Source: Acidimicrobiia bacterium (lineage in GTDB: Bacteria; Actinomycetota; Acidimicrobiia; Spongiisociales; ZC4RG35). From it: a stretch of DNA of 64,000 nucleotides. Positions within the stretch are counted from its first letter, which is position 1. The number at the start of each line of letters is the position of its first letter. The stretch is taken from the NCBI GenBank assembly GCA_028285585.1, contig JANQOU010000003.1:62001-126000 (forward strand). Reading direction: 5' to 3'. Positions 4,006 to 20,673 of the stretch are shown here, piece after piece. Made by a program: the position numbers and the translations under genes. Under the pieces are notes generated by a model. The model was not told where the DNA came from. It made no database searches and was given only the letters and a program-made list of their open reading frames with translations.

Positions 4006-4794
4006 ATGGATCTGGGTGAGCTAGCCGGAAGTGAGTTCGGCCCGCGCACGCTCCATGTCTCGCCGGACGGCGTGGCTGACTTCGTGGCCGCCACAGGCGA
4101 TGATGCCGAGAGGTGGACAGAGTTCGCCCCTCCCGGCTTCATGTCGGTGGCACTTTTTGCAGTGGCCCCCGACCTTCTTGGCCTGCTCTACGAGCACTCG
4201 GTCATCCACGGCGACCAGTCGTTCACCTGGCATCGCCCCTTCGCCATCGGCACCGAGCTTTCGGTCAGCGGCGTCGTCACCCGCTCCAGGGAGCGTGGTG
4301 GCGTCTACTTCATCACATTCGAGATGGAGGTAAAAGACTCCGACGGCGTGGTCGCGGCTGGCTCGGCAGGGTTCCTCGCTGCCGGCGAGGCCGCAGCGAC
4401 TTCTTCGTCTGAACAGGCCGAGCCCGAGGCGACCGACGACGGAAGTCCAGGGCAGGGCCAAAAGGCCGCTTCGCGTGGTGACCTGGTGAGATATGCCGCC
4501 GCGACTCGTGACTGGAATCCGATTCACTGGGACCACGATGCTGCCGTTGAAGCAGGTCTTCCCGGCGTTGTAGCTCACGGACTGTTGCAGGCGAGCTGGG
4601 CTCTGGTCGAGGCATCGGCAACAAGGACTGGCGATCGCCCGCTTGCCCTCGCCAAGATCAGGTTTCGCAGCCCGTTGCCCCCGGCGACGCCGGTCGATGT
4701 GGCCTCGTCACAGGACGGATCGACTTGCAGCGTCGTGCTGTCGGGCCAGGATGTCGAGTATCTGAGTGCGCGAATCGAGCTGGCCGATGAGTAA
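4006..4794 (+). CDS. MaoC-fold (R)-hydratase/dehydratase, fused HadA-HadB type
   Basis: 262 residues from ATG 4006. The N-terminal half (about 1-130) resembles the MaoC-N hot-dog domain with a WHRPFAIGTELSV segment. An acidic linker leads to a second hot-dog domain with the hydratase signature RDWNPIHWDHDAA and GVVAHGLLQ, where Asp and His act on the 3-hydroxyacyl thioester. In other actinobacteria separate hadA and hadB genes sit between rpmG and tRNA-Trp/secE, so this looks like a fused version of that fatty-acid dehydratase. Substrate is inferred. Confidence 0.78.
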   Translation: MDLGELAGSEFGPRTLHVSPDGVADFVAATGDDAERWTEFAPPGFMSVALFAVAPDLLGLLYEHSVIHGDQSFTWHRPFAIGTELSVSGVVTRSRERGGVYFITFEMEVKDSDGVVAAGSAGFLAAGEAAATSSSEQAEPEATDDGSPGQGQKAASRGDLVRYAAATRDWNPIHWDHDAAVEAGLPGVVAHGLLQASWALVEASATRTGDRPLALAKIRFRSPLPPATPVDVASSQDGSTCSVVLSGQDVEYLSARIELADE

Positions 4795-5365
4795 CCACCA
4801 AGACCCGATGCAGGTCGAATCGGAGAAAGAGAAGGACCTGATCGCCCGTGCACAGGCGGGTGACAGAGCGGCGTTCGCCGCCCTGGTCCGGGCCCATCAG
4901 AACGAGGTCTACACATTGGCGCGCAGACTTGTCGGCGACCCACATCTGGCATCAGACGTGGCGCAGGAGGCGATGATTCGCGCCTGGCGTGCCCTGCCCC
5001 GGTTCCGCGGTGATGCACGGCTCTCGACTTGGCTGCATCGAATAACGGTCAACACCGCCTGGACTCACAAGAAGAAGGCGAAGCGCCACGCCGGCCTCCC
5101 GGTCGACGACTACATGGAGTTGCCGGCACCTGTTGGTGCGGACCATCCCGAGTTCGCCGGCGAGATCGTCGAGCTGCGCGGGAGGCTGCGTCAGGCTTTG
5201 GACCGCCTGCCCGACGGACAGCGTCAAGTCGTGATCATGAAAGACGTTTATGGCTGGTCCCATGCCGAGATCGCCGAGGCGATGGATATCACTGTCACGG
5301 CCGCCAAGGTGAGGCTGCATCGTGCCCGTGCCCGGCTGGTCAAAGACCTGGAGGAAGCGTCGTGA
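4787..5365 (+). CDS. ECF RNA polymerase sigma factor
   Basis: 192 residues from ATG 4787, overlapping the previous stop (ATGAGTAA). Region 2 carries DLIARAQAGDRAAFAALVR and DVAQEAMIRAWRALPRF; region 4 carries VYGWSHAEIAEAMDITVTAA and a basic C-terminal helix. The start could instead be the Met at 4808. It is translationally coupled to a ZAS-type anti-sigma at 5362 and heads the accessory island, so it is a candidate regulator of the halogenase/RiPP genes downstream. Confidence 0.88.
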   Translation: MSNHQDPMQVESEKEKDLIARAQAGDRAAFAALVRAHQNEVYTLARRLVGDPHLASDVAQEAMIRAWRALPRFRGDARLSTWLHRITVNTAWTHKKKAKRHAGLPVDDYMELPAPVGADHPEFAGEIVELRGRLRQALDRLPDGQRQVVIMKDVYGWSHAEIAEAMDITVTAAKVRLHRARARLVKDLEEAS

Positions 5366-5691: not shown

Positions 5692-5812
5692 GGGTTCATT
5701 CGACAGTCTTGAGTTGAGATTCTTCTACTAGAGGTACTGCTCAGCCAACGTATAATGACCCGCCGATGGGGTGGGTGGCTCCATCACGCAACATCTTGTC
5801 CAGGAGTCAGTA

Positions 5813-7210
5813 ATGGGGTACGCAAGTCCGGACGTATTGATTATCGGTGGAGGTCCAGCCGGTTCGACAGCGGCCCTTCGCTTGCTAGACAACGGGGTCA
5901 AGCCGCTCATCGTCGAGCGCGAGCAGTTCCCTAGATATCATGTTGGCGAGGCGATGACTGGCGAAGGCGGAGCCATTGTCCGTGAGTTGGGTATCGACAA
6001 GAAGCTCACTCTCGACGATCACACCGTCAAGTACGGAGTCAATGTCTTTGGTAGCCGCGGCAACCCAGATTGGTGGGTTCCTGTGATGCGACGCGATGAG
6101 GACTTCGTCCTCAGTGAGGCGAACACCTACTCGGTGCGTCGCAGTGTGTTCGACAAGCTTCTCCTTGACACGGCCTTGGATGGCGGGGCCGAGCTTCTCG
6201 ATGGGCGCGCTACTGAGCCACTGGTGGACGAGGCGGGAGTCGTCGGTGGGGCAAGGGTCCAGGTCAACGGGAAAGAGGTCGACGTTCAGGCATCGATGAC
6301 TCTCGATTGCTCCGGCCAGGCGACCTTCTTGGCCAACAGGAAGGCGACGGGGCCCAAGTACAAGGGGTCGTACGATAAGCAGATTGCCGTTTTCTCCCAG
6401 ATTGCCGGTTATCAACGCGCCGACGACAGCGAAAGGGAGCAGGGTGCAGGTAACACCCACATCTTCTACAAGAAGAAGTACCACTGGGCATGGGCGATCC
6501 CACTGGATCGGGACTTGACCAGTGTGGGGATTGTCATCCCAGCGGCTTACTTTCGTGACAGCGGACTCAGCCAGGAGGAGTTCATAAAGTCAGAACTTCG
6601 AACTCTCAACAAAGGCTTGGCCGAGCGGATCCCTGAGAACGTGGAGCTGTCAGAGCCACCCCATGTGGTGCCCAACTATTCGTTCCAAGTGCGGAAGTTC
6701 GCTGGTCCTGGCTACATCTGCGTGGGTGACGCCCACAGGTTCGTCGACCCGATCTTCTCCTTCGGGCTATACGTGGCCATGAAAGAGGCCGGGCTGGCCG
6801 TGGAGCAGGTGATGAGATGGCTAGACGGTGAAGGCCGTGACTCCGACAACCCTTTCCTCGACTACATGGTCCACACCGAAGGGGCCATCGACATGGTCGA
6901 GGACATGGTTGACACCTTCTGGGAGAATCCCCTCGCCTTCGCATACATGGCACACGACAAGTTCCGCCAGCAGGTGCTCGATATGTTTGCTGGTCGCATC
7001 TATGACGGCCAGCCCGTCGTAGATCGCGACGAGGCGCTGAGCGTGTTTCGCCGGCTCCTCAAGCGGGAGCGTACATACGATGCGACAGGCGAATACTCCA
7101 TCCCGATAGGGTCGAGATACCACGCAGACCGCGCCCCGCTTTGGAACTCGGAGCTGAGCGACATCGAGAGCACCGAACGCTGGCTCGCCGAGGCCACTGA
7201 GCCTGGGTAA
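5813..7210 (+). CDS. FAD-dependent halogenase-like oxidoreductase
   Basis: 465 residues from ATG 5813, with AGGAG 7 nt upstream; an earlier in-frame start at 5771 lacks a ribosome site. The Rossmann motif IIGGGPAGS is at 10-18. WAWAIP at 225-230 fits WxWxIP, the signature of flavin-dependent halogenases, and GDAHRFVDPIFSFG near 305 is the second FAD-contact region. Such enzymes use FADH2, O2 and halide to halogenate an aromatic group, usually on a carrier or peptide. Related monooxygenases and reductases share the fold, so halogenation is an inference. It precedes an ABC exporter and the RiPP genes. Confidence 0.7.
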   Translation: MGYASPDVLIIGGGPAGSTAALRLLDNGVKPLIVEREQFPRYHVGEAMTGEGGAIVRELGIDKKLTLDDHTVKYGVNVFGSRGNPDWWVPVMRRDEDFVLSEANTYSVRRSVFDKLLLDTALDGGAELLDGRATEPLVDEAGVVGGARVQVNGKEVDVQASMTLDCSGQATFLANRKATGPKYKGSYDKQIAVFSQIAGYQRADDSEREQGAGNTHIFYKKKYHWAWAIPLDRDLTSVGIVIPAAYFRDSGLSQEEFIKSELRTLNKGLAERIPENVELSEPPHVVPNYSFQVRKFAGPGYICVGDAHRFVDPIFSFGLYVAMKEAGLAVEQVMRWLDGEGRDSDNPFLDYMVHTEGAIDMVEDMVDTFWENPLAFAYMAHDKFRQQVLDMFAGRIYDGQPVVDRDEALSVFRRLLKRERTYDATGEYSIPIGSRYHADRAPLWNSELSDIESTERWLAEATEPG

Positions 7211-7268
7211 CCCTGACGTTCGCCCCTCGATTGCAGGTCGCCTCCTTTTTCTGACGCGGCGGTGAAGA

Positions 7269-8006
7269 TTGCTGGTTGTTGATCGACTTTCGAAGACCTA
7301 CCCCCCGGCATCCGGGGCTCTGCGCCTCGTCGTGCGCACGGCTGCCGAGGAGCCAGTGAACGCCCTAAAAGATGTCAGCTTCGAGGTCAAGGCGGGAGAG
7401 ATCGTCGGGCTTGTTGGAGCCAACGGTGCAGGCAAGACCACCTTGTTCCGCATAATCGCCGGTTTGCTCGAGCCGACTGGTGGCAGCGTCACGATCGACG
7501 GCCAGGACATCTCCAAGAGACGTAAGGAAGCGATACAGCAGCTGGGCCTCGTTCTCGAGGGGGCGCGTGGCGTCTACAAGCGTCTCACCGGACTGGAGAA
7601 CCTCGTGTTCTTCGGGGTGATGCAAGGGCTGACCAGAGATGAGGCGGCGAGCCGAGCTGTAGAGCTATTGGAGAGGCTAGGCCTGGCCGATCGTGACCGG
7701 CGTGCCTTCGGGTACTCGGCAGGGATGAGGGTTCGACTGGCCCTGGCACGCTCTCTCATCGCCGATCCCTCACTGTTGTTGTTGGACGAGCCGACTCGAA
7801 GCCTTGACCCGGCCGCTTCGCTCGATGCGATGAGGCTGGTTCTCGAACTGGCAAGCCAGGGACGTGCCGTGCTGCTGGCAACTCACCGTCTCGACGAGGT
7901 CCGGGAGTTCTGTGATCGCGTAGTCGTCTTGGAACAGGGTCGACTCACTCATGTCGGCACTCCGGCGACAACCGACTTCAAAGCCGTGTTTGGGGCCGAG
8001 ACATGA
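7269..8006 (+). CDS. ABC transporter ATP-binding protein
   Basis: 245 residues. Walker A GANGAGKTT at 50-58, signature YSAGMRVRLALAR, Walker B LLLLDEPTRSLDP and the H-loop ATHRLDE are all intact. The start codon is TTG at 7269 and is not certain. It overlaps the next gene by 4 nt and energises that ABC-2 permease. Likely cargo is the island's peptide or halogenated product. Confidence 0.88.
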   Translation: MLVVDRLSKTYPPASGALRLVVRTAAEEPVNALKDVSFEVKAGEIVGLVGANGAGKTTLFRIIAGLLEPTGGSVTIDGQDISKRRKEAIQQLGLVLEGARGVYKRLTGLENLVFFGVMQGLTRDEAASRAVELLERLGLADRDRRAFGYSAGMRVRLALARSLIADPSLLLLDEPTRSLDPAASLDAMRLVLELASQGRAVLLATHRLDEVREFCDRVVVLEQGRLTHVGTPATTDFKAVFGAET

Positions 8007-8812
8007 AGATATCGGTGCAACAAGTGCTGGCGGTGCTGAGACGTGACCTACAGGTCCAGCTGACCTATCCCTTCCAGTTCCTGTCTCGAGGGATCGGCAT
8101 CTTCGTCTCGCTGTTCACCTTCTTCTTCTTGGGGCGCCTCGTCGGCGCGTCGTCTTATCTCGATCAGTACGAGGGTGGGTACTTCGCATTCGCCCTCGTC
8201 GGGGTGGTGACCATGATCCTGGCGGGAGCGGCTTTGCAGAGCTTCACGAGCGGGCTTGGGTCCGACGCGGGCGCAGGGACCCTCGAGATCCTGCTCGCCT
8301 CCAGGGTTCGTCTCGGTGTCCTGGTGACGGGATGGATGTTGTATCCGTTGCTGCTGGCATCCGTCCAGGGACTAGTCATGTTTGGTTTCGGATGGTTCCT
8401 GGTGTCCGATGCGTTCCACCTCGGCGGTCTGTTGATCGCCGTGCTGCCCTTTGCGTTGTTGGTCCTCACGTTTTTGGCGGTGGGCGTCGCAGCCGGTGCG
8501 TTCACCGTGATCTCCAAGCGCGGCGATCCCATCTCCGGGATCTACCTGAGTGTCTCCACACTGCTCGCAGGCGCAGTGTTCCCAGTCGAGGTGCTCCCGG
8601 AATGGCTTCAGGCTATAGCCCGCCTCTTCCCGGCCTTCTACGGCTTCCGAGCGATACGCGAAGCACTCATCGGCGGAAGCACCTTTGCCGACATTCGCGG
8701 AGACGTGCTGATCCTCGTGGCCTTCAACATCGTGCTGCTGCCACTTGGCATGTGGACTCTGCGCCGAGCGCTGCACTTCGCCCGGGTGATGGGAACCCTG
8801 GCTACTTCCTGA
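8003..8812 (+). CDS. ABC-2 type transporter permease
   Basis: 269 residues with about six hydrophobic segments, coupled to the ATPase by an ATGA overlap. The late motif SGIYLSVSTLLAGAVFPVEVLPEWLQ (split here around the P-x-E loop, residues about 178-203) is typical of ABC-2 exporters of drugs, polysaccharides or peptides. It ends 13 nt before the convergent B1 gene. Probable role is export or immunity for the RiPP locus. Confidence 0.85.
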   Translation: MKISVQQVLAVLRRDLQVQLTYPFQFLSRGIGIFVSLFTFFFLGRLVGASSYLDQYEGGYFAFALVGVVTMILAGAALQSFTSGLGSDAGAGTLEILLASRVRLGVLVTGWMLYPLLLASVQGLVMFGFGWFLVSDAFHLGGLLIAVLPFALLVLTFLAVGVAAGAFTVISKRGDPISGIYLSVSTLLAGAVFPVEVLPEWLQAIARLFPAFYGFRAIREALIGGSTFADIRGDVLILVAFNIVLLPLGMWTLRRALHFARVMGTLATS

Positions 8813-8824
8813 GCGGTTGGTGCC

Positions 8825-9088
8825 TTACTTCTCCAGCATGTTCAGCTCGTCGAGCTGATTGATGAAGGCTTGTGCGTCGGTCTGGGCGAGATCGAGCTCG
8901 ATCTCGAAGGTGTCCACCAGCTGCTGGGCGAGGGCATCGACTGTCGCACCATCCTTGAGGGATTCCCACAACACCGTTCCAGCCGGGTTGGTTGCGAAGT
9001 ACTGCTCCGAATCGTCGTCGAGGATCACGGTCTCGTCGACCGCTTTCACCGACTCGAGATCGGACCTGAGTTTGAAGAGTCTTTCCAT
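8825..9088 (-). CDS. PqqD-like RiPP recognition protein (lasso B1 type)
   Basis: 87 residues from ATG 9088 with GGAGGAAAC directly upstream. The sequence pattern (ILDDDSEQYFATNPAGTVLW, then a helical half ending DELNML) is that of stand-alone PqqD-fold proteins, which bind precursor leader peptides and hand them to modifying enzymes. It follows the B2 gene by 30 nt on the same strand. In lasso peptide clusters the B1-B2 pair removes the leader. Partner precursors lie 1.5-3.2 kb away. Confidence 0.82.
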   Translation of the reverse strand: MERLFKLRSDLESVKAVDETVILDDDSEQYFATNPAGTVLWESLKDGATVDALAQQLVDTFEIELDLAQTDAQAFINQLDELNMLEK

Positions 9089-9118
9089 GTTTCCTCCGCC
9101 GGGCAGGCTAACCACGTT

Positions 9119-9583
9119 TCATCTGAACGAATCTGGGCCTGCAGTCTCAGCTTGATCCGTGGACAAAGGCAGGTACTTCGTCTTGACCGACTGCGGGTCG
9201 TTGAGCACCAACCCATCCAGCTCGACCCAGGCGTGGAACTGATGCGGCTCGCCGGTCTCGCCCCTGGTGACGCCTCGGACGATGTGTGCGTCGTCTCCGG
9301 CCACCCAGAGGACGGCAAGGGAGCGCTCCAGGCAAGTGAAGACCAGTGGCCGAAGCCGGGCAACCCGATCCACGAAGTGGGCGACTTCCGGCATCTCATC
9401 AGGGCCCATGGTCGGGATTCCTGTGTCTTTGAGAGCACTCAGCGTGGTTGCGTAGCCGTCCCGCCGAAGCGAGCGCCTCGCTTTGGGAAGATAGGCCAGG
9501 GCCTTCAGCGCGGTCTTCCGGGCAGGCCGAGACAGGGCTCGGTATTGCCTGACTCCTCTGAGCAGTTTCCGCATCATCGACAT
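9119..9583 (-). CDS. Lasso-peptide B2-type leader peptidase (transglutaminase-like)
   Basis: 154 residues. The Cys-His-Asp triad of this family is visible: Cys84 in TCLERSLAVLW, His117 in PHQFHAWVELDG and Asp129 in LNDPQ. B2 enzymes cleave the leader from RiPP precursors with help of the B1 protein encoded just downstream. The ATG overlaps the ATG of the divergent kinase gene inside one CATG, leaving no shared promoter gap; an alternative start is Met4. No asparagine-synthetase-like cyclase gene is present nearby. Confidence 0.85.
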   Translation of the reverse strand: MSMMRKLLRGVRQYRALSRPARKTALKALAYLPKARRSLRRDGYATTLSALKDTGIPTMGPDEMPEVAHFVDRVARLRPLVFTCLERSLAVLWVAGDDAHIVRGVTRGETGEPHQFHAWVELDGLVLNDPQSVKTKYLPLSTDQAETAGPDSFR

Positions 9584-10430
9584 GATCTCACGACAGCGGA
9601 TCGCAGTCGATTACCGTCGCCAGGTGTCCACATCTTCACACGGTGCCTACGGTTTTCGTCTGTCCGGGCTGGACGATGCTCTGGATTGGTTGAACCCCGC
9701 ACCGGACGACTGGCCGACGGTAGAGGTGAAGCAGGAGGTCGCTCCGCCTGATGAGTCTTCGCGGTTCGACGAGGAGGTGAGGGCGTTTCCGCTCATGGGG
9801 GGCTACCGACTCGAGGTGATGCGTGCCGAACGAAGGGTTCTGTTCTCAGGCCCTGAGCCACTGAGTAGCCCTGCCCTCATCCACCCATTCCTGGCCCCGG
9901 CTGCGTCGGTGTTGTGTCGATGGGAAGACTGGCCCCCTTTTCATGCTGGGGCGTTCGTCGTCAACGGAGAGGCCTGGGCCCTGACTGCTGACCGAAACGG
10001 AGGGAAGAGCACCACGCTTGCTGCTCTCGCCGAGTCGGGTGTGCCGGTGCTGACCGACGACTTGGTCGTCCTCAAGGAGAGTCACGTGGCAGCCGGCCCT
10101 CGTTCCGTTGACTTGCGGGATCCTCGCGACTTCTCAGATGTCGAGTATCTAGGGGAGCTGGGAAGGCGGGAGCGTTGGAGGAAGCAGCTAGCGCCGGTGC
10201 CGGCGGAAGTGCCCGTGGCTGGTGTCATCCAGCTCGTTTGGTCCGATGCTCCCGGTGTTCACTGGGTTTCGATGGAAGAGAAGCCGGAGATCATCAAGGA
10301 AGGGCTCTCGTACTCAGCCTCTGGTCGGGCCATGCTCGATGTGCTGCGTCTCCCTATGGTCCGGGTCGGCCGTCCGCGAGGAGAGCTGACAGAGACGATC
10401 GATCTGGTGCTGGAGGCGGTGAGGGCGTAG
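9582..10430 (+). CDS. HPr-kinase-like RiPP-associated kinase, copy 1
   Basis: 282 residues. A P-loop ADRNGGKST sits at 136-144, preceded by FHAGAF (His121) and followed by PVLTDDLVVL; this is the HPrK fold used by kinases that phosphorylate Ser in lasso precursors. No PTS gene is in the window, so a regulatory HPr role is unlikely. It is about two-thirds identical by eye to copy 2 at 10713. The downstream convergent gene encodes precursor 1. Likely reaction: ATP-dependent phosphorylation of a Ser/Thr in the precursor core. Confidence 0.75.
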   Translation: MISRQRIAVDYRRQVSTSSHGAYGFRLSGLDDALDWLNPAPDDWPTVEVKQEVAPPDESSRFDEEVRAFPLMGGYRLEVMRAERRVLFSGPEPLSSPALIHPFLAPAASVLCRWEDWPPFHAGAFVVNGEAWALTADRNGGKSTTLAALAESGVPVLTDDLVVLKESHVAAGPRSVDLRDPRDFSDVEYLGELGRRERWRKQLAPVPAEVPVAGVIQLVWSDAPGVHWVSMEEKPEIIKEGLSYSASGRAMLDVLRLPMVRVGRPRGELTETIDLVLEAVRA

Positions 10431-10461
10431 GAAGGGAACCTGCGCAAGCTGCTCAGACAAA

Positions 10462-10491
10462 GAAGCCGGGCCCCTTCGGGGGCCCGGCTTC
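10462..10491. terminator. Bidirectional terminator between kinase 1 and precursor 1
   Basis: A perfect 13-bp stem GAAGCCGGGCCCC/GGGGCCCGGCTTC with TTCG loop. On the minus strand it is followed by TTTG and would end the precursor 1 transcript; on the plus strand it would end the kinase transcript. Confidence 0.85.
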
Positions 10492-10510
10492 CGTAAGCGA
10501 CTGTCGAGGT

Positions 10511-10636
10511 TCAGGCTACGTCGTTCACGGGCGTAGTGGTGACGATGATGGACACGACCGGGGCCGTATCAGGCACGCCTTGGGTCAGCTCGGCAACGCT
10601 GCCAAGCGAACGGACTGTTGGTGCTTCGTAGGACAT
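10511..10636 (-). CDS. RiPP precursor peptide 1
   Basis: 41 residues, too short for routine gene calling. Leader MSYEAPTVRSLGSVAELT matches the lasso-type pattern YxxP...LG...LT, with the Thr expected at position -2 of the cleavage site. The predicted core starts GVPDTAPVVS and ends TPVNDVA. It has Asp at core position 4 and none at 7-9, so a standard lasso ring cannot be drawn. A strong SD (GGGAGG) lies 7 nt upstream. Leader identity with precursors 2 and 3 makes this a real gene. Confidence 0.85.
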   Translation of the reverse strand: MSYEAPTVRSLGSVAELTQGVPDTAPVVSIIVTTTPVNDVA

Positions 10637-10682
10637 GTGCTGCCTCCCTGTGTTCGCGGTCGCAATAAACCCACCTGATGCC

Positions 10683-10706
10683 AGCGTAGCAGTTCAATAC
10701 TCTCCG
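10683..10706 (-). promoter_or_regulatory. Putative promoter of precursor 1
   Basis: Read on the minus strand: CGGAGAGT, a 10-nt gap, then TACGCT. The same CGGAGAGT box with TATTGT or TAGATT follows at the same distance upstream of precursors 2 and 3. Shared position before three paralogous genes is the evidence; the sigma factor is unknown. Confidence 0.5.
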
Positions 10707-10722
10707 TGACGAGTGGTCACGG
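10704..10722. promoter_or_regulatory. Palindrome CCGTGAC-N5-GTCACGG, possible operator
   Basis: A perfect 7-bp inverted repeat between the divergent precursor 1 and kinase 2 genes. It recurs at 11893-11911 with a different 5-nt centre but intact arms, which suggests selection. It overlaps the upstream end of the CGGAGAGT box, so a repressor here could block precursor transcription. Confidence 0.5.
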
Positions 10723-11573
10723 TGCGTTTCTACTTGAGGTTGGTCACGGTCGATTACCGTCGGAAGGTGTCAACACCTTCGCATGGTGCTTACGGCTTTC
10801 GCTTCTCGGGAGTTGAGGATGCACTGGATTGGTTGAACCCTGCACCATCTGATTGGCCTGTCGCGGACGTGGAGCAGCGTGTCGGTGTAGTCACGGAGCC
10901 ATCTCGTCCTCGCGACGACGTGATGGAGAAGCTGCTCAAGGGAGACCGGAGCTTGCGCGTCTTTCCGTTCGAGCGGCGAGCCGTGCTGACCGGGCCCAAG
11001 CCGGTAAGCAGTGCTGCTCTCATCCATCCTTACCTGGCACCGGCTGGTGCCGTGTTGGCCTGGAGAGAAGATTGGCCTTCCCTGCATTCAGGTGCCTTCA
11101 TGGTGGGGGACAAAGCCTGGATTCTGGCCGCCGACAAAGATGGAGGAAAAAGCACCACACTTGCTGCTCTCACCGACTCAGGCCGTCCAGTCTTGTCAGA
11201 CGATGTCGTCGTTCTCAAGAACGGTCAGGTGGCGGCTGGCCCCCGTTCCATTGACCTGAGAGCACCGAGCGCTGCTCCCGATGTCGAGCATGTGGGGGTG
11301 TTGGGGCGGAGAGAGCATTGGAGAAAACGACTTCCGCCGGTACCGCCGGAAGTGCCGGTAGCGGGTTTGATTCAGCTCGTCTGGTCAGACACGGTGAGCG
11401 TCGCTCCAATTCCACTCGGCGAGAGACCGGACCTGGTTAAGAGCAGGTTGGCGTACCCGGCCTCCGCTCGTCCGACGTTGGGCATCCTTCGTCTTCCCAT
11501 GATTCGGGTCTCCCGGCCTCGCGGAGATCTCAGCGAGACGACCGACCTGGTTCTCGAGGCAGCCGACGGGTAG
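10713..11573 (+). CDS. HPr-kinase-like RiPP-associated kinase, copy 2
   Basis: 286 residues. Same architecture as copy 1: LHSGAF, P-loop ADKDGGKST, PVLSDDVVVL, then the C-terminal RPRGDLSETTDLVLEA. The longest reading starts at GTG 10713, inside the palindrome; TTG at 10734 or 10740 would align better with copy 1 and leave the palindrome untranslated. The second half of the 10.4-11.9 kb segment repeats the layout kinase (+), terminator, precursor (-), so a cassette duplication is clear. Confidence 0.75.
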   Translation: MVTVRFYLRLVTVDYRRKVSTPSHGAYGFRFSGVEDALDWLNPAPSDWPVADVEQRVGVVTEPSRPRDDVMEKLLKGDRSLRVFPFERRAVLTGPKPVSSAALIHPYLAPAGAVLAWREDWPSLHSGAFMVGDKAWILAADKDGGKSTTLAALTDSGRPVLSDDVVVLKNGQVAAGPRSIDLRAPSAAPDVEHVGVLGRREHWRKRLPPVPPEVPVAGLIQLVWSDTVSVAPIPLGERPDLVKSRLAYPASARPTLGILRLPMIRVSRPRGDLSETTDLVLEAADG

Positions 11574-11596
11574 CCGTAGTTGGCCCGCCAAGAAAA

Positions 11597-11627
11597 AAGA
11601 CGGGAACTCAGAAGAAGTTCCCGTCTT
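11597..11627. terminator. Terminator between kinase 2 and precursor 2
   Basis: A 12-bp stem AAGACGGGAACT/AGTTCCCGTCTT with a 7-nt loop. On the minus strand it runs into TTTTTT, a strong intrinsic terminator for precursor 2. Confidence 0.85.
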
Positions 11628-11693
11628 AGTCGACTGCCAGAAAGGCACCGCTTGTGTGCCTCTCTGCTCAGCCTCTGCGTGTGTTCTTGGTGA

Positions 11694-11816
11694 TTAGGGC
11701 AGTGCCGTTGTCGGGACCGTAGGTCTGACGGACACGTCCGGAATCGTCTTCGTCACTTGAAGGGTGATCTCGGCCACGCTCCCGAGTGAGCGCACTGCTG
11801 GTGCTTCGTAGGACAT
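11694..11816 (-). CDS. RiPP precursor peptide 2
   Basis: 40 residues; ATG with GGGGAGG upstream. Leader MSYEAPAVRSLGSVAEIT differs from precursor 1 at two of 18 positions. The predicted core begins QVTKTIPDVSVR and ends PTTALP. With cleavage two residues after the Thr rule, Asp falls at core position 8, the usual ring-closing place of a lasso peptide, although residue 1 would be Gln rather than Gly. Codon use differs little from precursor 1 in the leader and strongly in the core. Confidence 0.85.
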   Translation of the reverse strand: MSYEAPAVRSLGSVAEITLQVTKTIPDVSVRPTVPTTALP

Positions 11817-11871
11817 TGTCCGGGCCTCCCCTTGTTCTCTGTTCCTTGGTCGTATCGACCCACCTGTGGCA

Positions 11872-11895
11872 ACAATAGCATCCCAATACTCTCCG
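11872..11895 (-). promoter_or_regulatory. Putative promoter of precursor 2
   Basis: On the minus strand CGGAGAGT, 10 nt, TATTGT. This matches the element before precursor 1 and is the best -10 sequence of the three. Confidence 0.5.
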
Positions 11896-11911
11896 TGACG
11901 AGCCGTCACGG
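11893..11911. promoter_or_regulatory. Second copy of the CCGTGAC-N5-GTCACGG palindrome
   Basis: Arms identical to 10704-10722, centre GAGCC instead of GAGTG. Retained although the adjoining kinase copy is deleted, which points to a role for the divergent precursor promoter. Confidence 0.5.
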
Positions 11912-12066
11912 TGTGTTTCTACTTGAGGTTGGTCACGGTCGACTGCTGTCCAAGGTGCTCACACCTACATGTGGTGCCTACGGCTTTCGTTGATTCGGGT
12001 CTTCCGGCCCTCACGGAGATCTCAGCGAGACGACCGACCTGGTTCTCGAGGCAGCCGAGGGGCTGG
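11911..12066 (+). pseudogene. Internally deleted third HPr-kinase-like gene
   Basis: The first about 80 nt match the 5' end of kinase 2 (TTTCTACTTGAGGTTGGTCA, later GGTGCCTACGGCTTTCG). The sequence then jumps to the last about 70 nt of kinase 2 (ATTCGGGTCTTCCGG, then TCAGCGAGACGACCGACCTG). About 700 bp including the P-loop are missing, so no kinase can be made. It is followed by the same terminator type and by precursor 3, marking a third decayed cassette. Confidence 0.85.
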
Positions 12067-12091
12067 TGGCAAAAGGCCGCCACCGCAAAGG

Positions 12092-12123
12092 AAAGACGGG
12101 AACCCATGAGAGTTCCCGTCTTT
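12092..12123. terminator. Terminator between kinase remnant and precursor 3
   Basis: Stem AAAGACGGGAAC against GTTCCCGTCTTT, nearly the same as 11597-11627, with T runs on both sides. Its likely function is to end precursor 3 on the minus strand. Confidence 0.8.
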
Positions 12124-12173
12124 CGTCAGTTAGCGAGTAGGCAAGAACCTTCTCGCTCAGTTCTTGGTTGTGA

Positions 12174-12302
12174 TCAGTCCAGTGAGGACGCCGAAACCCC
12201 GTTCGGGACTCTTATGGAACCGTTCGGAAGCGTCTTGCTCACCTGAAGTGTGATCTCAGCAACGCTCCCGAGTGAGCGCACCGATGGTGCTTCGTAGGAC
12301 AT
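12174..12302 (-). CDS. RiPP precursor peptide 3
   Basis: 42 residues; ATG with GGGAGG upstream. Leader MSYEAPSVRSLGSVAEIT is again conserved. The predicted core begins QVSKTLPNGSIR and ends SASSLD. It aligns without gaps to precursor 2 (QVxKTxP), but core position 8 is Asn rather than Asp, so a normal macrolactam would need another residue. The core is rich in Ser, a possible kinase target, although its own kinase copy is deleted. Confidence 0.83.
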   Translation of the reverse strand: MSYEAPSVRSLGSVAEITLQVSKTLPNGSIRVPNGVSASSLD

Positions 12303-19575: not shown

Positions 19576-20673
19576 ATGGATAGTCGACAACGTCTTCTTG
19601 CTTTCTTCTCCCCTGAACTGGCTGCGGTCCCCGGCTCGGTCGAGCTGTTTCAGCTGCTGCTGGCCGGCGGCGAACGTAGCGAGCCGTTGCATCTGGATGC
19701 GGAGAGCGAGTCGGCCTTCGTCGAGTGGGCCAACCAACACCGTCTGACTCCACAACTTCTGGCCGCCATCGACCACGGGGCGATCAGCGTGTCGAGCCAG
19801 CTCACTGAGACCGCCAAGGGCTGGTCGAGAGAGTTGGCGATATCGAGATTGTCACTCGATCGTCTGTTGCTTGTCATCGCCGAGACGCTGTCGTCGCACG
19901 AGATCGAGTTCATCGTGTTGAAAGGCGTTCCCACCGGGCGCCTCGACTACAGCACCCCGACGCAGCGGGTCATCTCCGACGTGGACATCTTGGTTAGACG
20001 CGAGCACCTGGATACGACCGTGGAAGCCTTGAGCGGTGCCGGATTCGCACGCACCGGGGATCTCGTCCTCCTCGACAAGGGGGAGAGCTTGTACTCCGAC
20101 TTGGGAGCAATCGACGTGCACACCCGGCCTCACGCAGCCGGTGGCTTCCTCGGCGAGTGGTGGTGGGACAACGCCGAGGAGTTCGTTGTGGCCGGGCAGC
20201 CATTTCAGGCGTTGCCTCGAGGTGGGCGGCTGGGCCATGCCTGTAGTCACCTTGCTGTCTCCTATCCGAACCACCGGCCCATCACCTCACTGCTCGACAT
20301 CGTCACCATCTCCCGGTCTGCATCTGATCAAGACAGAGCTGTTGCCAACGAGTTCCTCGCTGAGATTGGCGTCTCGGACCTCACCTCGCGAGTGATGGAG
20401 AGAGCCGCGGTGCTTCTCGATGACCCGGGTCTGGCGTTCGGCTCATCTAGAGCCGGGCTCAGCAACTGGGCCCTGCGGCGGGCTTACGACCGGCCGGATC
20501 TGGACCTGCGCGCCGTCAAGCTCGCCAAGACGATCGGGATGCCCTGGAGTGAGAAGCCGCAGGCAGTAAGGCGGCTGATAGCGCCGCCCCCTGAGTTCCT
20601 CGCCTTGGGCGGGTACTCCTCTCGGCGTGATCGCCTCCGTTCGCTCCTCAGACGCAAGAAAGGTGGGGTCTGA
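19576..20673 (+). CDS. Nucleotidyltransferase family protein (NTP_transf_5 type)
   Basis: 365 residues. The family core is visible: VLKGVPTGRLDY at 114-125, then RVISDVDILV with Asp135 and Asp137 as metal ligands, followed by a helical C-terminal part. Proteins of this family occur in lasso peptide clusters beside HPr-kinase-like genes, and this organism has both. It sits alone between the rplA terminator and the rplJ leader, a place where other bacteria have nothing. Target (peptide or small molecule) is unknown. Confidence 0.72.
   Translation: MDSRQRLLAFFSPELAAVPGSVELFQLLLAGGERSEPLHLDAESESAFVEWANQHRLTPQLLAAIDHGAISVSSQLTETAKGWSRELAISRLSLDRLLLVIAETLSSHEIEFIVLKGVPTGRLDYSTPTQRVISDVDILVRREHLDTTVEALSGAGFARTGDLVLLDKGESLYSDLGAIDVHTRPHAAGGFLGEWWWDNAEEFVVAGQPFQALPRGGRLGHACSHLAVSYPNHRPITSLLDIVTISRSASDQDRAVANEFLAEIGVSDLTSRVMERAAVLLDDPGLAFGSSRAGLSNWALRRAYDRPDLDLRAVKLAKTIGMPWSEKPQAVRRLIAPPPEFLALGGYSSRRDRLRSLLRRKKGGV

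Follow-up and report, generated by a model that had tools for sequence, protein, structure and literature searches.

A lasso-type gene cluster with paired HprK-like kinases and precursors, and no detectable cyclase, in an Acidimicrobiia bacterium

The window, by which we mean the whole stretch of 64,000 nucleotides that was analysed, contains a gene cluster assembled from lasso peptide parts in which no macrolactam cyclase is detectable. The cluster combines three precursors that have a lasso-type leader with a PqqD-like recognition protein (B1), a lasso leader peptidase (B2), HprK-like kinases and an ABC exporter pair. We consider it rather probable that these parts, working without a ring-forming step, yield a linear, leader-cleaved phosphopeptide. 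The window covers positions 62001-126000 of a 230,556-base contig, and the cluster lies mid-contig, far from both ends. The genome itself is 2.59 Mb in 14 contigs and is 96.85% complete. Cluster genes were recognised between 5771 and 12302 (flavoprotein, ABC pair, B1, B2, kinases and precursors), and an ECF sigma factor gene (4766-5365, plus strand) stands just upstream of the flavoprotein gene. The features are listed below in window coordinates. Core starts were predicted by the Thr(-2) rule, in which the cut falls after the residue next to a conserved Thr.

5771-7210, plus strand: flavin-dependent halogenase-like protein with GxGxxG and WxWxIP motifs; pathway membership uncertain
7269-8006, plus strand: ABC exporter ATPase (phmmer 2.8e-96 to that of a cyclase-bearing relative)
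8003-8812, plus strand: ABC-2 permease (phmmer 4.3e-75 to that of the cyclase-bearing relative)
8825-9115, minus strand: B1, PqqD-like RiPP recognition element (RRE; PqqD, 52.9 bits)
9119-9583, minus strand: B2, lasso leader peptidase, transglutaminase-like (lasso_biosyn_B2, 45.1 bits, cut-off 33)
9582-10430, plus strand: K1, an HprK-like kinase that retains His, GKS and Asp-Asp; convergent with P1
10511-10636, minus strand: precursor P1, 41 aa, leader MSYEAPTVRSLGSVAELTQ (codons 10580-10636) and, after the predicted cut, core GVPDTAPVVSIIVTTTPVNDVA (10514-10579)
10713-11573, plus strand: K2, an HprK-like kinase sharing 59-60% identity with K1; convergent with P2
11597-11627, no strand assigned: terminator-like hairpin between K2 and P2
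11694-11816, minus strand: precursor P2, 40 aa, leader MSYEAPAVRSLGSVAEITL (codons 11760-11816) and, after the predicted cut, core QVTKTIPDVSVRPTVPTTALP (11697-11759), the sole core of the three with an acid at position 8
11884-12062, plus strand: K3, kinase remnant with approximately 685 bp deleted relative to K2
12174-12302, minus strand: precursor P3, 42 aa, leader MSYEAPSVRSLGSVAEITL (codons 12246-12302) and, after the predicted cut, core QVSKTLPNGSIRVPNGVSASSLD (12177-12245)
19576-20673, plus strand: NTP_transf_5 protein, the only copy in the genome, 7.3 kb from P3; membership uncertain

The three precursors share the leader YEAPxVRSLGSVAE(I/L)T, which is of lasso type, with YxxPx(V/L) and Thr(-2) present in each. 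They score 28.7 (P1), 22.5 (P2) and 21.0 bits (P3) against NCBIfam lasso_leader_L3 (cut-off 19), and dN/dS (omega) among their leaders is 0.07-0.14, a sign of purifying selection; they are therefore not chance open reading frames. Around each precursor start, 94 nucleotides align in three copies. P1-P3 are certainly genuine paralogues and, as such, together amount to close to one observation. Across the first 11 core codons dN/dS is 0.43-1.7, a range that rests on few sites, with two of its three values lying close to 1. The earlier note on this DNA was centred on 11694-12302, an interval that takes in P2 and P3; P1 lies outside it.

The genes are arranged as three tandem units, with a kinase first and a convergent precursor after it in each. 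These units repeat in register, kinase and precursor having been duplicated together. By sequence, P2/P3 and K2/K3 are the younger pairs and P1/K1 the older, as expected if the units were copied whole. The K3 remnant consists of a 5' end resembling 10695-10801 (85%) joined to a 3' end resembling 11486-11570 (90%). A sequence similar to the hairpin between K2 and P2 is present, inverted, at approximately 12092-12123, between the K3 remnant and P3; the number of terminator-like hairpin hits in the region is not above that in shuffles. K1 and K2 have a dN/dS of 0.19 and keep the His, P-loop Lys and Asp-Asp of characterised lasso kinases (PMC10368454, PMC9266682). The first P-loop Gly is Ala in both, as it is in the kinases of genomes G017 and G019. 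A kinase profile search finds HPr kinase chains (E 0.0024), and an AlphaFold model of the kinase (pLDDT 87.3) matches PEPCK (E from 7e-10) and HprK (E from 7.7e-6), which are known fold relatives. With a profile built from a narrower kinase alignment, the contig scan returned only two loci, both already known from the analysis. Two of the kinase relatives belong to Acidimicrobiia MAGs.

B2 retains its catalytic triad of Cys (TCLERSL), His (FHAWVE) and Asp (VLND). In related systems B1 speeds phosphorylation by such kinases and guides B2, and BsfK phosphorylates core Ser3 with B1 help (PMC10368454). By analogy, the window product would be a linear phosphopeptide that is released by B2 and exported. 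B1 would bind each precursor through its YxAPxV leader motif and present it to a dedicated HprK-like kinase, which would add at least one phosphate to a core Ser or Thr. B2 would then remove the leader, cutting after the residue next to the conserved Thr, and the ABC pair would export the linear phosphopeptide. K1 would act on P1, and K2 on P2 and probably also on P3, for which only the K3 remnant is left.

The macrolactam cyclase expected of a lasso peptide cluster was not found in this 96.85% complete genome. Searched over the genome, Pfam Asn_synthase (PF00733) gave nothing over its cut-off and one sub-threshold match, which from its sequence we take to be the tRNA-thiolation gene mnmA. Short cyclases of relatives do come up in the same search, the most divergent of them at 29.6-31.7 bits. 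With a profile built on four short cyclases of related clusters, and all 21 candidates in the genome scored, the best hit was 17 bits over 47 residues, and a profile of 11 local cyclases found nothing meaningful in the window or in the 14 kb before it. The assembly is in 14 contigs and falls a little short of completeness, so a cyclase could lie inside a gap. Among related loci, L032, L033, L043, L044, L069, L070 and L071 encode lasso cyclase-like proteins of approximately 385-425 aa that match the synthetase domain only. These short proteins seem to be without the N-terminal glutaminase-like domain that is usual in lasso cyclases.

The cores begin GVPDTAPVVS (P1), QVTKTIPDVS (P2) and QVSKTLPNGS (P3). 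As the earlier note had read them, they align without gaps as xVxxTxPxxS, with Val2, Thr5, Pro7 and Ser10 common to all three and residue 8 being Val in P1, Asp in P2 and Asn in P3. The first residue is Gly in P1 and Gln in P2 and P3. An Asp or Glu at core positions 7-9 is present in one of the three (Asp8 of P2), and a ring in P1 through Asp4 was rejected, as position 4 is outside 7-9. We compared 22 Acidimicrobiia precursors, picked by leader patterns and including paralogues that are not independent, and found an acid at core 7-9 in 12 of the 15 with a cyclase in the locus or genome versus one of the seven without (Fisher p=0.0066); among these seven, L040 adjoins a kinase and comes from a genome that has no B2. 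Counted by genome majority, the acid is present in five of seven genomes with a cyclase versus none of five without (p ~0.03, by hand). These counts support, but do not prove, that the ring acid goes with the cyclase among Acidimicrobiia. A uniform acid at 7-9 in homologues had been named beforehand as evidence against reading these cores as non-lasso; the homologues are split, the acid being mostly kept where there is a cyclase and not where there is none.

That the cores are unsuited to a lasso ring and likelier to be phosphorylated, as first proposed from the letters, is reinforced by the failure to find a cyclase and by the two intact HprK-like kinases that adjoin. The accompanying suggestion that Thr5, Pro7 and Ser10 are conserved functional residues did not hold up. 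P1 and P2 agree at V2, T5, P7, V9 and S10, of which P3 keeps four; given a P2/P3 core identity of 6/11, this has P ~0.25 (hand calculation), and the sharing is no more than the similarity of close paralogues predicts. The Thr5, Pro7 and Ser10 codons are identical in all three precursors (ACG, CCG and TCC), and the pattern is absent from the precursors of the related genomes compared. We therefore rejected it as a modification motif. Characterised HprK-like peptide kinases modify core Ser3 or a C-terminal Ser (PMC13381572, PMC10368454, PMC9266682). In P1, P2 and P3, core position 3 is Pro, Thr and Ser, and the C-terminal residue is Ala, Pro and Asp; there is no C-terminal Ser, and at neither position is a Ser or Thr common to all three cores. 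With Thr5, Pro7 and Ser10 unsupported and with core 3 and the C-termini varied, the target residue is not readable from sequence.

The closest B2 (44% identity) belongs to a genome of the same family, G126, and is sister to the window B2 with support 95/94. The G126 cluster (L069) and the window have in common a similar ABC pair, B1, a lasso leader, an HprK-like gene and NTP_transf_5. The G126 cluster differs in having a short (~400 aa) cyclase, a precursor with a normal Gly1-Asp9 lasso core (GSASGAYLD...) and a kinase of another subfamily. The closest grouping of K1 and K2 is with the kinases of G241, G017 and G019, and not with the G126 kinase; kinase and B2 thus have different histories. 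A B2 scan of 395 genomes gave 23 over the cut-off. Among those read, B1-B2 clusters without a neighbouring cyclase are present in five other genomes: a kinase accompanies those of G051, G210, G378 and G236, and an NTase that of G054, which lies at a contig edge and whose genome is 77% complete. In G051, G210 and G378 (94-100% complete), every Asn_synthase match in the genome is short and low-scoring, and G236 has cyclase-family genes elsewhere in its genome. Cyclase-less sets fall in three places in the B2 tree, the deeper branches of which are weakly supported: the window next to G126, G051 together with G054, and a group of G236, G378 and G210. The B2-like proteins of this last group have a Cys and a GHCW motif, unlike the usual sequence. 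A leader-pattern search did not find precursors in L112, L114, L106, L109, L111 or L117. In G210 (L115, 9456-9593, minus strand), a lasso-type leader, MKRPYKKPTLTDLGLLRKLTR, is followed only by FSF and adjoins B1, B2, a kinase and NTP_transf_5.

Among known systems, we compared the cluster with the linear polyphosphorylated peptides (LPP) of Bacillota (Popov et al. 2026, Nat Commun, PMC13381572). LPP clusters have an RRE and an HprK-like kinase without a cyclase, their peptide, linear by the authors' inference, is phosphorylated on core Ser3, and they are described as restricted to Bacillota (PMC13381572). Both kinds of cluster have an exporter, a discrete RRE with an HprK-like kinase, leaders of YxxPxV type and variable cores, and no macrolactam cyclase is detectable in the window. 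LPP clusters include an NTP transferase; the genome's sole NTP_transf_5, 7.3 kb from P3, may or may not be its counterpart. The LPP leader peptidase is a SipW-like signal peptidase (LppS), whereas the window has a lasso B2 in that place and no SipW-like peptidase among the cluster genes recognised at 5771-12302. The LPP exporter is MsbA-like, whereas that of the window is an ABC-2 type pair; the LPP leader motif is YxxPxVLxHQxIxFETxxS, whereas the window leader is lasso_leader_L3 and agrees only in YxxPxV; and the window host is an actinobacterium. The phosphorylated lassos of paeninodin/pseudomycoidin type (PMC9266682) and BsfA of Bradymonas (PMC10368454) share with the window the leader, B1, B2 and an HprK-like kinase with the His-Lys-Asp-Asp motif, and clusters of this kind sometimes contain NTP_transf_5. 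They have a cyclase and a Gly1/acid core, and the window has neither, except for Gly1 of P1 and Asp8 of P2. The window product cannot be assigned to lasso peptides, as cyclase and ring acid fail, nor can it be counted as an LPP member, as peptidase and leader motif fail. By analogy, the cluster probably works like LPP.

In the RRE-Finder survey, peptidase and cyclase accompanied only approximately 4,000 of the almost 8,000 discrete lasso-type RREs, and the remainder were set aside as possible false positives (PMC7470986). In the window, unlike those leftovers, precursors and kinases are identified and the peptidase is kept, without a cyclase. Together with the other cyclase-less loci found, this suggests that some of the RREs set aside belong to real pathways, in which lasso leader processing operates with no lasso. 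What is new is probably that a lasso leader, a lasso B2 and kinases occur together with no cyclase, LPP-type linear phosphopeptides of Bacillota being already known; we found no earlier account of a B2-bearing, cyclase-less form in the open-licence literature, which is weak evidence of novelty. If our reading is true, linear phosphopeptide biosynthesis reaches beyond Bacillota and a lasso B2 can serve non-lasso products. The paired kinase-precursor paralogues would offer material for studying residue choice by HprK-like kinases. Mining tools that require a cyclase overlook such clusters, and tools without that demand may mislabel them as lasso peptides.

Tentatively, and at slightly less than an even chance, we propose a cyclase-independent lasso-type branch in Acidimicrobiia, distinct from Bacillota LPP, in which leader, RRE and B2 lead to linear phosphopeptides, kinases duplicate and co-diverge with their own precursors, and the cyclase was lost or never had in at least three B2 clades. 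The ancestor of the window lineage would most likely have been a lasso cluster of paeninodin type; once its cyclase was lost, the acid at core 7-9 would have ceased to be maintained. A decaying lasso cluster, with its cyclase lost, its third kinase broken and its precursors drifting to pseudogenes without a product, is unlikely. A third kinase that is already a remnant also fits decay, as do the near-neutral core dN/dS in two comparisons and the cyclase of the nearest relative, but RiPP cores commonly diversify, and the low dN/dS of the leaders and of K1/K2 counts against decay. The genes for the three precursors, the two kinases, B1, B2 and the exporter pair are all intact, sets without a cyclase are found again elsewhere, in genomes of two further B2 clades, and kinase and precursor were duplicated together at least two times, which points to use.

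We regard it as quite unlikely that the linear phosphopeptide is displaced by the product of another enzyme (the halogenase-like flavoprotein, NTP_transf_5 or something unrecognised) acting as the main core modifier, with phosphorylation minor or intermediate, for example preceding hexosylation as proposed for pseudomycoidin PsmN. The flavoprotein, with its GxGxxG and WxWxIP motifs, adjoins the exporter, yet none of the three cores has the aromatic residue that a typical flavin halogenase would use, and no gene for it was seen in the cluster of G126, although the contig there stops nearby. The NTP_transf_5 protein belongs to the family of the NTase in paeninodin-like and LPP clusters and is close by; its gene is inserted among ribosomal protein genes, between rplA-like and rplJ-like ORFs. 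LPP end products are still unknown (PMC13381572), which leaves some room for a further modifier. Very improbable is an ordinary lasso cluster with its cyclase missed or in an assembly gap, an eight-residue Gln1-Asp8 ring in P2 and P1 and P3 off-pathway: P2 has its Asp8, cyclase-bearing relatives have Gln or other residues at core 1, and G335 and G282 encode a cyclase away from B2, but two models over the whole genome found no cyclase and two of the three cores lack an acid at 7-9.

Several related loci were observed alongside this analysis. The HprK-like kinases of G060-G062, G087, G089 and G090 were set aside, as they lie in polysaccharide-type loci in which no B2 or leader was found. Kinases of the same subfamily in L034, L036, L037, L038 and L041 also lie in polysaccharide-type loci, beside large Wzz-like and permease-like proteins; some of these loci have a PqqD-like gene, and a peptidase or leader was not found in them. 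G017 and G019 have B1, B2, a kinase and a short cyclase, and their clusters (L032 6876-7661, plus strand; L033; L073) contain up to seven tandem lasso-leader precursors. The cores are very short (6-13 residues) and contain Ser, as in DDGSVFDADPTN, VDGSFGDREQP and VPGSIT, the last being too short for a lasso. A Gly/Ala-Ser step recurs near core positions 3-4. A lipid A acyltransferase-like protein adjoins B1 in L032 (5824-6804, minus strand; PF03279) and L033 (900-1928, plus strand), and the product there could be acylated.
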